A stretch of DNA of 64,000 nucleotides from Deltaproteobacteria bacterium. GTDB lineage: Bacteria; Desulfobacterota; Binatia; HRBIN30; JACQVA1. Position 1 is the stretch's first letter. Each line of letters opens with the position of its first letter. Where the stretch lies: positions 248,001 through 312,000 of the forward strand of contig JACOST010000011.1 in assembly GCA_016178705.1 (NCBI GenBank), written 5' to 3'. Made by a program: the position numbers and the translations under genes. Positions 306 through 7,592 of this stretch are shown one piece after another. The notes under the pieces were generated by a model, which ran no database searches, was not told the origin of the DNA, and was given only the letters and a program-made list of their open reading frames with translations.

Positions 306-526
306 CCTCGCGCCCATCGTCTTCGCCGGCCCCCGCAATCCAAAGAGGGCACGTAACCGTAGTCAGATTCGTTGCAGCCGTGCCCAAGGTCGATTAGAGT
401 CGCGGGGAACTTGGGACTACGAGAGTGGGTTCGGCATCAGTGAGCTGACCCGCGGCCGCCGCAGCAACGTGGCGCGCCGCCACTAACCCACCGGGTGCGA
501 GACCCGGATGTAAGGGAGGAGCAGTT
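306..526 (+). promoter_or_regulatory. Leader region of the bufferin-type operon
   Basis: This 221-base non-coding stretch precedes the Cys-rich precursor gene. A strong ribosome-binding site (GGGAGGAG) lies at 512-519, a few bases before the ATG at 527. A GGAAC at 406-410 resembles the -35 box of ECF-sigma promoters, but I see no convincing -10 box, so no promoter is claimed. Confidence 0.35.
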
Positions 527-787
527 ATGAAGACGTCCGTCAAAGGTGCCGTGATTGCCGCCGCGGTGGCGGGGATTTTTGCCGCCCGCTTGGCGCTGGC
601 CGATGAGGCTGGCAAGGGCGCGGCCGAAGCCAAAGTGCATTGTCAGGGCATCAACGCGTGTAAGGGCCACGGCGAGTGCGGCGGCGCCGGCCACGACTGT
701 GCCGGCAAGAACGAGTGCAAGGGGAAGGGCTGGGTGTCAGCCAGCGAAGCCGACTGCAAGGCCAAGGGCGGCACGATCGCGAAGTAA
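527..787 (+). CDS. bufA2: Bufferin-type precursor peptide (BufA2-like), six-Cys secreted RiPP
   Basis: This 86-residue protein starts with a signal peptide (Lys at 3, then an Ala/Val-rich core, predicted cleavage after LALA near residue 25). The mature part is Gly/Lys-rich with six Cys in short modules: HCQG, NACKG, GECGG, HDCAG, NECKGKGW and DCKAKGG. Such modules are typical of the bufferin 2 group of MNIO-modified precursors. In that family a DUF692 enzyme modifies Cys residues into copper-binding heterocycles and the peptide acts in the periplasm as a copper buffer. The next two genes encode exactly the expected maturation pair, which supports the call. Copper binding is family knowledge and is not shown here. 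The GGGAGGAG ribosome-binding site fixes the start. Confidence 0.82.
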   Translation: MKTSVKGAVIAAAVAGIFAARLALADEAGKGAAEAKVHCQGINACKGHGECGGAGHDCAGKNECKGKGWVSASEADCKAKGGTIAK

Positions 788-831
788 CTCGCTGCCGGGG
801 CGCGGCCGCGCCGCGCCCCGGAACGCTTCCC

Positions 832-1725
832 GTGTCCACCCCACCGTATAGCCGACCCGCCGCACTCGGCTGCGGCGTCGGGTTGCGTCCCACGCACTAT
901 CCGTACATCTTCGAGCATTGGCCCGCGGTTGATTGGTTCGAAGTCATCTCCGAGAACTTCATGGTGTGCGGCGGCCGTCCGCTGCATACGCTCACGCGCA
1001 TCCGCGAGCGCTACCCGATCGTGCTCCACGGCGTGTCGCTCTCCATCGGATCGGCCGATCCGCTCAACCTCGAGTATCTTGGCGAACTGCGCCGGTTGAT
1101 GCAGCGCTTCGAGCCGGCCTGGGTTTCCGATCATCTGTGTTGGACCGGTGTTGGCGGCCACAACCTGCACGATTTGCTCCCGCTGCCGTTCACCGCGGAA
1201 GCCCTCGCGCACGTCGTCGAACGCGTGCAGCGCGTGCAAGATGCACTGGGTCGCCGCATCGCGCTGGAGAACGTATCGAGCTATCTCACCTTCTGCCATT
1301 CGATGATGCCGGAATGGGAGTTTCTCGCTGCCGTTGCGGAACGCGCCGACTGCGGCATCCTGCTCGACGTGAACAACATCTATGTCAGCGCTGTTAATCA
1401 TCGCTTCGATCCGATCGAGTACATGCGAGCGATCCCCATCGACCGCGTGTGGCAGTTTCATCTGGCCGGCCACAGTGACCACGGTGATTACCTGCTCGAC
1501 ACCCATGACCACCCAGTGAAGGAGGCGGTGTGGGATCTCTACGTCGAGGCGCTCCACCGTTTCGGTGCGGTCTCCACGCTGATCGAATGGGACGACAAGA
1601 TTCCGGAATTCCCCGAAGTGCAAGCGCACGCCGATCGTGCGCGCAGCTTGCAGGAGCGCGTCCATGCGCACGCCAACGCTCGAACAAACCCAACGCCTGC
1701 TGTGGCGATTGATCACAGCGCCTAG
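832..1725 (+). CDS. bufB: DUF692 multinuclear iron-dependent oxidase (MNIO), bufferin maturase
   Basis: This is a TIM-barrel DUF692 protein of about 297 residues counted from a GTG at 832; the frame is open further upstream but overlaps the precursor gene. Family landmarks in order: GVGLRPTHY near residue 15, EVISENF near 37, HGVSLSIG near 66, SDHLCW, ALENVSSYL, LLDVNNIYVSA, QFHLAGH and TLIEWDD. The His, Glu, Asp and Asn residues in these motifs are those that bind the two or three iron ions in MNIOs. The enzyme is expected to oxidise Cys residues of the upstream peptide in the cytoplasm before export. It overlaps the next gene by 62 bases, which implies translational coupling. The start is uncertain because no good ribosome-binding site is visible. 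Confidence 0.9.
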   Translation: MSTPPYSRPAALGCGVGLRPTHYPYIFEHWPAVDWFEVISENFMVCGGRPLHTLTRIRERYPIVLHGVSLSIGSADPLNLEYLGELRRLMQRFEPAWVSDHLCWTGVGGHNLHDLLPLPFTAEALAHVVERVQRVQDALGRRIALENVSSYLTFCHSMMPEWEFLAAVAERADCGILLDVNNIYVSAVNHRFDPIEYMRAIPIDRVWQFHLAGHSDHGDYLLDTHDHPVKEAVWDLYVEALHRFGAVSTLIEWDDKIPEFPEVQAHADRARSLQERVHAHANARTNPTPAVAIDHSA

Positions 1726-2476
1726 CGGCGTCGCCGATGGCCTGCGCACGTTGGACGGCACCGACCGGCTGTCACGCGGCGGGTTGGAGGCGATCGTCAA
1801 CGGCGACGTCGTGCTGCCCGCGGTGCGGCGGCTCGACATCTACGCCAACATGTACTTCTTCCGCCTGCTCGATGCGCTCAAGGAAGATTACCGTGCCGTA
1901 CTCGCCATGGTCGGCGATGCGTCGTTTCACAACTTGATCACCGACTACCTGCTCCACCATCCGCCGTCGCATCCATCGCTGCGCGACGCGGGCAAACATC
2001 TGCCGCCGTTCTTGCGCAGTCACGCGCTGACGCAGGCGCAGCCGTTTTTGCCCAACCTCGCTGCATTTGAATGGGCATTGGTCGACGCCTTCGATGCGCC
2101 CGATGCCGATTGCATCACGCGCGACATGCTGGCCACCATTGCCCCTGATGCGTGGCCCGATTTGCGGCTGCAGCTCGCGCCCTCGCTGCAGCTTCTCGAA
2201 CTCGACTTCGCCGTCGGCGAATCGTGGCACCGCGTGCAAGCGGGCCAGCCCGGCGGCAAGCCGACGCGGCGCACCAATTGGGTGCGCATCTGGCGTCACG
2301 AATTGCGCGTGCTGCAGCGGGAGATTGCCGCCGACGAATTCGCCGGGCTGCAAGCGGCCGCCGGCGGCGAATCGTTCGCGACACTCTGCGAACGGGTCGC
2401 CCGCGGCGAGGAACGAATCGCCGCCTTGGTGCAGCAGTGGCTCGCCGACGGGTTGCTCACGGGATGCGACAGGTAG
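1664..2476 (+). CDS. bufC: DUF2063 (BufC-type) MNIO partner protein
   Basis: This 270-residue protein has the N-terminal DUF2063 signature: LEQTQRLLWRLIT, then a Leu/Asp-rich helix, RLDIYANMYFFRLLDALKED near residue 55, and FLPNLAAFEWAL near 130. In bufferin and related MNIO clusters this protein is the partner that binds the precursor and presents it to the DUF692 enzyme. The start at 1664 is chosen because an AGGAG lies seven bases upstream and it gives the normal N-terminus. The gene overlaps bufB. No DoxX-like fourth gene (often present in such operons) follows; the next gene is convergent dusB. Confidence 0.85.
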   Translation: MRTPTLEQTQRLLWRLITAPSGVADGLRTLDGTDRLSRGGLEAIVNGDVVLPAVRRLDIYANMYFFRLLDALKEDYRAVLAMVGDASFHNLITDYLLHHPPSHPSLRDAGKHLPPFLRSHALTQAQPFLPNLAAFEWALVDAFDAPDADCITRDMLATIAPDAWPDLRLQLAPSLQLLELDFAVGESWHRVQAGQPGGKPTRRTNWVRIWRHELRVLQREIAADEFAGLQAAAGGESFATLCERVARGEERIAALVQQWLADGLLTGCDR

Positions 2477-5816: not shown

Positions 5817-7592
5817 ATGATTCGTTGGGTATTGGTTCTCGCTGCCCTCTGGGGGTGGAGCGGTTTCAGGACGGCGACCGCTTCTGCCGCCCTGCTGGCC
5901 CCGGAGATCCGTCAGCGGCTCGCCGCGAGCGACCGCGTCGACATTGCCGTCGCGCTGCGACCACCGACGGAACGCGCGGCAACAGACGAACCGCAGCAAC
6001 GCGCGCGCATCGCCCGACGACGGTCCGCTGTTCTCGCCGAAGCCGGCGCCCAACTTGCGCCCGACGACATCGAGCTTCAGCACCAATTCACCACCGCGAA
6101 CGGATTCACTGCGTCGGTCTCGGTCGCAGGATTGGCGGCCTTGGCCGCACACCCAGACGTGGTGCGCATCGATGCGGCGCAGTACGGCGGCGCCGCGCTG
6201 GCCAACAGCGTGCCGCAGATCAACGGTGACCTCGTGCGCGTGCTCGGCATCGATGGCCGCGGTGTGACGGTCGCCGTGCTCGACACCGCCATCGATACCG
6301 CGCATCCGGATTTCACCGGACACATCGGCGAGGAGGGGTGCTTTTGCTTCGGCTGCTGCCCACACCACGCGAATCGTGCCTCCGGACCTGGCACAGCCAC
6401 CGGCACCGGCATCGCCGCGGGGCACGGCACGCACGTCACCGGGATCATCATTTCGCAAGGCACGCATCACATTGCGAGCATCGGCGTCGCGCCGGGCGCG
6501 CAGATCACGGCCCTCCGTGTTCTGAACGCGGACTGGCGGGGCGCCCTCGGCGATTGGGTGGCCGCACTCGATTGGATCGCGGCGAATCGTCCGGACATCC
6601 GCGCCGTGAACATGAGTTTGGTCAGCGACGAGTTGTATCCCCCGGGCTGCGATGATGGCAGCGTGTTCAACATGATGTTCCACGAAGTCGTCGACACCTT
6701 GCGCGCCCACGGCACGCTGGTGTTTGCGGCGGCGGGAAACCATTTCAGCTCGACGATGATGGGCGCACCCGCGTGCGTATCGAACGTGGTCGCGGTGGGC
6801 GCGGTCGATCGCCAGGACATGGTCGCAGACTTCAGCAACAGCGACAGCGGGCTGGCCGTCTTGGCACCGGGCGTCGACATCCGCTCGACCGCACCCAACG
6901 CCACGACAGCCGTGCTGAGCGGGACCTCGATGGCGACGCCGCATGCGGTCGGCGTTGCCGCGCTCTTGTGGAGCGCCGATCCAGGCGCACACCCTGATCA
7001 GATCGAAACCTATCTGCGCACAACCGGCGTCCCGGTGCATGATGACCGCAATGGCCTCACCTTTCCCCGCATCGATGCGCTGGCCGCCTATGAAGCGCTC
7101 CTCCGCGATACCGCCTATGCCCGCGGCGGCGGCAGTCGACTCACCGACTGCTTGGTCGAATGGGGTTTCGTACCGACTTCGACGATGCACTCACGCGTAC
7201 GTCCAACCGCGGTCTGCCACGACGGCGACCCCGCATGTGATCGCGACGATATCCCCGGTCAGTGTACCTTCGAGCTCTCGCTCTGTTTCAACGTGCCGGA
7301 CGGCCGCATTCCGTTCTGCCGCACCAACGATCCGATCACGCGCCTGACCCTGCGGGCGCCGCAGATCGGCGCCGCCGATCCGGTGGAAGCCGGCAATGCC
7401 GCGGCAACGGCCGAGGTGCTGCCGGCGACTCCGATCGAAGGCCAGCGGGTGTGCACCGAGCCGATTCATCTCAAGGTACCCATCGTCAACGGCCACGGCC
7501 TGCGTACGGTTCACTTGACCGCCGAGAGCGGCGAGCGCCGCGATGTCGATCGCGCGCATTTGGTCTGCCGACCGGCCAGTACAGAAAAATAG
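5817..7592 (+). CDS. Secreted S8 family (subtilisin-like) serine peptidase
   Basis: This 591-residue protein begins with a signal peptide (hydrophobic residues 4-14, Ala-rich cleavage region near 24). An inhibitor-I9-like propeptide region (about 30-125) precedes the subtilase domain. Catalytic residues are visible: Asp 156 (TVAVLDTAIDTAHPDF), His 203 (GHGTHVTGI), the oxyanion Asn near 308 (AAAGNHF) and Ser 371 (SGTSMATPHAVG). An odd insert between the Asp and His motifs carries four Cys (GCFCFGCC). About 150 C-terminal residues are Cys-containing beta-type sequence of unknown role. It is divergently transcribed from the GGT-like gene. The substrate is unknown. Confidence 0.9.
   Translation: MIRWVLVLAALWGWSGFRTATASAALLAPEIRQRLAASDRVDIAVALRPPTERAATDEPQQRARIARRRSAVLAEAGAQLAPDDIELQHQFTTANGFTASVSVAGLAALAAHPDVVRIDAAQYGGAALANSVPQINGDLVRVLGIDGRGVTVAVLDTAIDTAHPDFTGHIGEEGCFCFGCCPHHANRASGPGTATGTGIAAGHGTHVTGIIISQGTHHIASIGVAPGAQITALRVLNADWRGALGDWVAALDWIAANRPDIRAVNMSLVSDELYPPGCDDGSVFNMMFHEVVDTLRAHGTLVFAAAGNHFSSTMMGAPACVSNVVAVGAVDRQDMVADFSNSDSGLAVLAPGVDIRSTAPNATTAVLSGTSMATPHAVGVAALLWSADPGAHPDQIETYLRTTGVPVHDDRNGLTFPRIDALAAYEALLRDTAYARGGGSRLTDCLVEWGFVPTSTMHSRVRPTAVCHDGDPACDRDDIPGQCTFELSLCFNVPDGRIPFCRTNDPITRLTLRAPQIGAADPVEAGNAAATAEVLPATPIEGQRVCTEPIHLKVPIVNGHGLRTVHLTAESGERRDVDRAHLVCRPASTEK

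Follow-up and report, generated by a model that had tools for sequence, protein, structure and literature searches.

A type 2 bufferin operon and the hairpin between its precursor and maturase genes in an uncultured deltaproteobacterial genome

Three overlapping or adjacent genes at positions 527–2476 of the window, the whole 64,000-nucleotide stretch of DNA analysed here, are arranged as bufA-bufB-bufC and encode a Sec-type precursor with six Cys, an enzyme of the MNIO (DUF692) family, and a partner protein of the DUF2063 family. This locus raises the question of which family of modified peptides the operon belongs to, and how a single operon might provide its peptide and its enzymes in suitable amounts. 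The features to which we refer are as follows.

513–521, plus strand: Shine-Dalgarno-like AGGGAGGAG upstream of bufA2 (direct reading of the sequence)
527–787, plus strand: bufA2, 86-aa bufferin precursor (ATG ORF; NF050166 Cu_RiPP_BufA2)
795–821, plus strand: intercistronic hairpin, bufA2–bufB (fold z, shuffles, and enrichment among relatives)
832–1725, plus strand: bufB, MNIO (PF05114) bufferin maturase (GTG start; NF050167, PF05114, and PDB 3bww)
1664–2476, plus strand (GTG start at 1637 possible): bufC, DUF2063 partner, PME type 1 (PF09836)

Assignment of the operon to the type 2 bufferins

The first-pass annotation had proposed a bufferin-type operon with an MNIO-modified six-Cys precursor and had suggested a search of the precursor against bufferin HMMs. 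Both curated models were passed: BufA2 scored 77.6 bits against NF050166 Cu_RiPP_BufA2 (cut-off 60), and BufB scored 387.4 bits against NF050167 MNIO_BufB (cut-off 310). The reading of a DUF692 (MNIO) gene and then a DUF2063 gene, overlapping, after the precursor was borne out by Pfam matches to the products of bufB and of bufC, which runs to 2476. The precursor was also as described, with a Sec-like signal peptide at approximately residues 1–25, cleaved probably after Ala25 as judged by eye, and exactly six Cys (C39, C45, C51, C58, C64, and C77). Lys directly follows three of these Cys (45, 64, and 77), and two CxGxNxCKG modules are present. We aligned 101 BufA2 sequences longer than 60 aa with E < 1e-6, in which L021 and L039 stand for one and the same locus. 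The six Cys of the window sit in columns with Cys in 94–101 of the 101 sequences, 89 sequences contain six Cys, and CxGxNxCKG modules occur twice in 70 and at least once in 94. Six Cys in 90% of Buf2 precursors and the gene order bufABC in bufferins are given in the available portion of PMC12452194. A PDB sequence search with bufA2 gave no meaningful match. By eye, a purine-rich box stands before bufA2 in many relatives, at a position roughly matching that of the Shine-Dalgarno-like sequence of the window.

BufB showed similarity with PF05114 (375.6 bits) and with PDB 3bww (E 9e-48). Its solved relatives by sequence were 3bww, a DUF692 protein (8hci, 8hi7, 8hi8; TglH/TglI entries), and MbnB. 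All other MNIO models remained below their cut-offs (HvfB-type, 269/360; ApyH, 105/400; MbnB, 63.5 bits/325; ChrH, 49/600). An HvfABC/EGKCG oxazolin system was rejected on the HvfB-type score, an HvfC score of 45.1 bits (cut-off 142) for BufC, and the lack of EGKCG in the precursor, and a methanobactin system was rejected on the MbnB score. Glu252 and Asp254 were invariant in 102 MNIO sequences from the retrieved loci. By motif, rather than by an alignment of FonB, Asp254 was equated with the catalytic base FonB-Asp249 of PMC13097082. In the portion of that paper available to us, the catalytic-base Asp is followed by Phe in enzymes of the Lys-Cys type and by a second Asp in those of the Cys-Lys type. 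The window BufB has Asp at this position, forming an Asp-Asp pair at the active-site motif, and the 102 MNIOs have D in 79, A in 14, E in 5, and G in 4. The MNIO of a second operon in the host genome has Ala at this position, though its precursor has CKG steps too, which suggests that Asp after Asp254 is not required for a CKG-type substrate.

BufC scored 67.3 bits against PF09836 DUF2063 (cut-off 27.2), and a PDB sequence search with bufC found no DUF2063 structure. Because AGGAG is located at 1652–1656, ATG 1664 is more likely to be the start of bufC than GTG 1637.

A profile scan of genome contigs yielded more than 580 loci, the best 80 of which were kept. Among these best 80, a BufA2-like frame was found upstream of the MNIO in 70, a DUF2063 frame downstream in 77, and both in 68, some of the misses lying at contig ends. 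This matching gene order and the HMM scores indicate that the operon is not due to chance. We also counted DoxX genes behind bufC in 70 loci (69 of these 80 and that of the window) with at least 600 bases of sequence there; of the remaining loci, 8 fell short of this length and 3 lacked a bufC frame. DoxX matches were obtained for 3 of 49 ORFs directly behind bufC, a count that covers ORFs of 90–300 aa starting from 150 bases before to 300 bases after the bufC end and thus omits longer or farther DoxX genes. According to the same portion of PMC12452194, sigma and NrsF genes are present in Buf1 and absent from Buf2 clusters. Since published Buf2 clusters have no sigma genes and DoxX seldom follows bufC, an operon of three genes is the usual form here, and the earlier suggestion of a "minimal version" without sigma/anti-sigma and DoxX-like genes did not hold. 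We conclude that the window operon is a type 2 bufferin (Buf2) operon, an already known kind, and an ordinary family member whose protein part has no visible difference from published Buf2.

The left-hand neighbour of the operon is a 1024-aa protein with dockerin-like and PPC domains ending at approximately 305, and the right-hand neighbour of bufC is dusB on the opposite strand. We regard a 398-aa minus-strand ORF at 643–1839 as a shadow of bufB. Neither a sigma nor an anti-sigma gene was seen beside the operon, no tRNA was found within the 64-kb window, and a scan of 280–2700 found no sigma-70-like promoter. When upstream regions of relatives were compared by eye, no motif in common with the window operon was found. 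A scan of 10 proteins that flank the two operons of the host revealed no copper gene; 4 of these proteins had no Pfam match.

Other neighbours were noted at some of the retrieved loci. The gene behind bufC resembles, by eye, a cysteine synthase or cystathionine beta-synthase in the Steroidobacteraceae-like L054, L058, L069, and L107, from a motif that we take to be that of these enzymes, and a CTP synthase in the Rickettsiella group (L046, L067, and L105). L052 has a further MNIO at 6248–7039, which is highly divergent, is followed by a DUF2063 frame of its own, and forms the longest branch of the MNIO tree.

Host lineage and the second operon

Because the assembly yielded no SSU rRNA, we compared RpoB of the host with that of 14 genomes behind the loci. 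Identity was 85% to L036 and 85–87% to L039 (both Deltaproteobacteria), 78% to L042, 76% to Candidatus Binataceae L059 (residues 1–1085 only), 74% to L040, 68% to L064 and L094 (344 residues in L094), 65–67% to L044, L045, and L050, 61% to L098, and 59% to L063; L038 (59–72%) and L109 (42–68%) matched only in pieces. Judging from these identities, a position of the host in or near Candidatus Binatota fits. The first-pass annotation had argued that a Binatota-like host would extend the range of bufferins. The placement of the host agrees with the first part of this statement, but an extension of the range does not follow, for L059 already has bufA-B-C and a BufA2 match was found in 39 of 58 sampled genomes of the host class, that of the host included (37 over the cut-off). 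Binatota may also appear in the taxonomic figures of PMC12452194, of which we refer to the text. The only paper with the word Binatota among the matches listed was PMC8692599, whose DUF692 clusters are, in the portion available, gammaproteobacterial. These counts show that type 2 bufferins occur frequently beyond the well-studied Pseudomonadota, in a lineage close to Candidatus Binatota that is uncultured.

In 9 of 29 same-class loci (L007–L035), no MNIO frame was found within 1.5 kb on either side of BufA2 (L007, L008, L009, L019, L025, L028, L029, L030, and L031). L007, L008, and L009 have a common pattern upstream of bufA2, seen by eye (TGGCAA, 14 bases, and TGCTAGAGCG), a possible promoter recognised by an alternative sigma factor.

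The host genome has two BufA2 matches and two MNIO-family matches, which are paired. Taken as longest ORFs, the genes of the second operon (C14) encode proteins of 92, 337, and 286 aa. In the MNIO tree (102 rows), whose uncertain midpoint root falls on a very long branch, the window BufB stood outside a supported 66-row clade of mostly Pseudomonadota, and the C14 enzyme grouped with two own-class relatives in a separate supported lineage (99/89). These positions suggest that the two operons belong to lineages that separated long ago and that neither is a recent copy of the other. At L006 10950–11819 (plus strand), about 3 kb away from the second operon, there was a weak cytochrome P460 match below the Pfam cut-off.

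The hairpin between bufA2 and bufB

The window hairpin (795–821) begins 7 bases after the bufA2 stop and has a perfect 12-bp pure GC stem and a 3-base loop. Similar hairpins between precursor and enzyme genes are known in other peptide operons. The fold of 778–845 had an energy of -36.5 kcal/mol (z -3.30), with 0 of 200 shuffles as good, and none of 5000 dinucleotide shuffles of the 77-nt gap of the window contained a perfect 12-bp stem. The energy z of this whole gap was only -1.09, because the shuffles are GC-rich as well.

We then measured bufA2–bufB gaps of 40–300 nt in 82 loci, one pair each, with shorter and longer gaps left out. Same-length segments and other same-strand gaps (40–200 nt, rough ORF calls, taken from the two own loci and the named loci among the 82) served as controls. 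The counts with an energy z < -2 and with a perfect stem length at p ≤ 0.05, respectively, were as follows.

bufA2–bufB gaps: 47/82; 45/82
Upstream of bufA: 14/81; 6/81
Inside bufA: 5/82; 4/82
Inside bufB: 5/82; 3/82
Behind bufC: 6/60; 5/60
Other same-strand gaps: 7/77; 4/77

The junction gaps, 24 of which reached z < -3, came from loci across phyla and differ in sequence; their difference from the other same-strand gaps gave a Mann-Whitney p of 3e-12 with kinship ignored. When MNIOs were clustered at 75% identity, a strong gap was present in 30 of 51 clusters, compared with 9 upstream and 4 inside bufB. A first pass over 92 BufA2-MNIO pairs, some loci being counted twice, had given 51 with z < -2. 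Among own-class loci, the own two included, z < -2 was obtained in 5 of 17 and a significant stem length in 6 of 17; in the near kin L011, L013, and L016, the gap is short and the hairpin is missing. Buf1 junctions from an HMM-based sample (28 gaps from 39 loci, 11 left out; 23 of the 28 from the class of a Bradyrhizobium record) showed z < -2 in 6 of 28 and a significant stem length in 4 of 28. Since the Buf2 gaps taken as alphaproteobacterial from titles and tree reached only 5 of 13, a difference between Buf1 and Buf2 in junction hairpins is not proven.

In the 47 strong gaps, the longest stem had a median of 14 pairs and began at a median gap position of 13, and at least four T were present in the eight bases after the stem in 14. 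Some junction hairpins look like intrinsic terminators, but that of the window does not. We aligned ten groups of near relatives and scored the pairs of the predicted common fold as compensatory or broken.

Methylophilus (3 gaps): 7/23 compensatory, 6 broken
Steroidobacteraceae-like (6 gaps): 3/14 compensatory, 6 broken
Bradyrhizobium-like (3 gaps): 10/51 compensatory, 20 broken
f11 of own class (3 gaps): 4/14 compensatory, 7 broken
Beijerinckiaceae (3 gaps): 5/12 compensatory, 6 broken
Sulfuricaulis-like (2 gaps): 1/10 compensatory, none broken
Betaproteobacteria (2 gaps): 0/21 compensatory, none broken
Legionella A (5 gaps): 0/27 compensatory, 8 broken
Legionella B (3 gaps): 0/10 compensatory, none broken
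Hyphomicrobiaceae-like (4 gaps): 0/5 compensatory, 3 broken

We read these counts as compensatory support in Methylophilus and Steroidobacteraceae, none in groups with nearly invariant stems, and little in poorly aligned groups.

It is quite possible, though less likely than a function, that the junction hairpin merely reflects the GC-richness of intergenic DNA or is a mobile palindromic repeat and serves no function; the operon itself is unaffected by this alternative. The pure GC stem and the weak z of the 77-nt gap in the window agree with this, as do the close kin without a hairpin and the groups of near relatives, 4 of 10 having no compensatory pair and 2 of 10 no good common stem. However, generic gaps rarely fold so strongly (7/77), and stems of different sequence stand at one position and, in some groups of close relatives, show compensatory pairs. 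A repeat is also opposed by the single occurrence of a 79-base piece of the C14 hairpin in its genome, which indicates that this hairpin is not a repeat family, and by the presence of the window hairpin at one place only within the 64-kb window. On balance we lean, with modest confidence, towards a functional element of the Buf2 class: a structured RNA between bufA2 and bufB, fixed in place and free in sequence, would uncouple the peptide from the enzymes, the window carrying a 12-bp version. Judging from its anatomy, the window hairpin is probably a partial terminator or a transcript stabiliser favouring peptide over enzyme. If functional, the recurrent hairpin offers a simple testable answer to how one operon yields bulk peptide and trace enzymes. 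Among the matches listed for hairpins in MNIO and other peptide operons, we found no report of one in bufferin operons, and the words hairpin, stem-loop, and terminator are absent from the main texts of PMC12452194 and PMC13097082. Internal terminators set subunit ratios in clostridial ABC importers, according to the part of PMC9045158 available.

Proposed function, alternatives, and known systems

We consider it very likely that the window carries a Buf2 operon making a thiooxazole Cu(I)-buffer peptide, with the hairpin probably raising the peptide over the enzymes. For the thiooxazole chemistry, export, and copper role of this operon, we infer from characterised relatives; the family route in print, as far as the portions of PMC12452194 and PMC13097082 at hand describe it, comprises maturation of Cys to thiooxazole by BufB and BufC, Sec export, and copper sequestration. 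In the window operon, expression of bufA2 would give the six-Cys precursor, which BufC, with its DUF2063 and RRE-like parts, would present to BufB in the cytoplasm. BufB, a putative multi-iron MNIO oxidase, would convert some Cys to 5-thiooxazoles, probably those in the Cys-Lys-Gly steps, and the Sec signal would then export the modified peptide to the periplasm, where its thiol heterocycles and remaining Cys would bind Cu(I) and blunt copper stress. The hairpin behind bufA would end most transcripts or protect the bufA 3' end after processing. Since a stoichiometric metal buffer requires that the peptide exceed the enzyme, a hairpin behind bufA would be a plain way to that end. We counted against this explanation the BufC score below the HvfC cut-off together with the lack of a DUF2063 structure in the PDB search, and the Ala in the MNIO of the second operon.

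With no copper gene among the scanned flanks and no promoter found, nothing local ties the window operon to copper. The lack of a copper gene there would also suit an operon of the Buf2 type that deals with a different metal or with oxidative stress, and in partial views of the literature, MerC-Buf2 fusions occur, MerC fusions being tied to mercury detoxification clusters (PMC12452194), and a related DUF2282-type GIG operon of Legionella is responsive to gold and copper (PMC5413113). We nevertheless regard such a product as unlikely, for the published bufferins bind copper in the portions of PMC12452194 and PMC13097082 available. That the operon is decayed or silent and gives no product is very improbable: the scan of 280–2700 found no promoter-like site and, in the part of PMC12538549 available, a Microbulbifer mmr cluster was not seen expressed even with added copper, but none of the three frames is broken, bufA and bufB match their HMMs over nearly the whole length, and the host genome keeps a second complete operon. 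We therefore retain the copper-buffer explanation as the preferred one.

The known systems resemble the window operon to different degrees; literature statements here are those of the paper portions available to us. Buf1 (DUF2282) bufferins share the MNIO with its DUF2063 partner and the thiooxazole chemistry, but differ in a four-Cys DUF2282 precursor and, in some clusters, sigma/NrsF genes (PMC12452194). The six-Cys-DUF692-DUF2063 clusters of Antarctic soil Gammaproteobacteria, for which metal chelation was proposed in 2021, share the three genes and the Cys count, but belong to another phylum and have a putative cation antiporter upstream (PMC8692599). Cys-Lys captophorins (PMC13097082) share multiple Cys-Lys steps in the precursor and the Asp after the catalytic-base Asp in the MNIO, whereas 23 of our 102 MNIOs have A, E, or G in place of this Asp. 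The Buf2 bufferins (PMC12452194; NF050166 and NF050167) share the six-Cys Sec precursor, the MNIO, the DUF2063 protein, the bufABC order, and the lack of sigma/anti-sigma genes.
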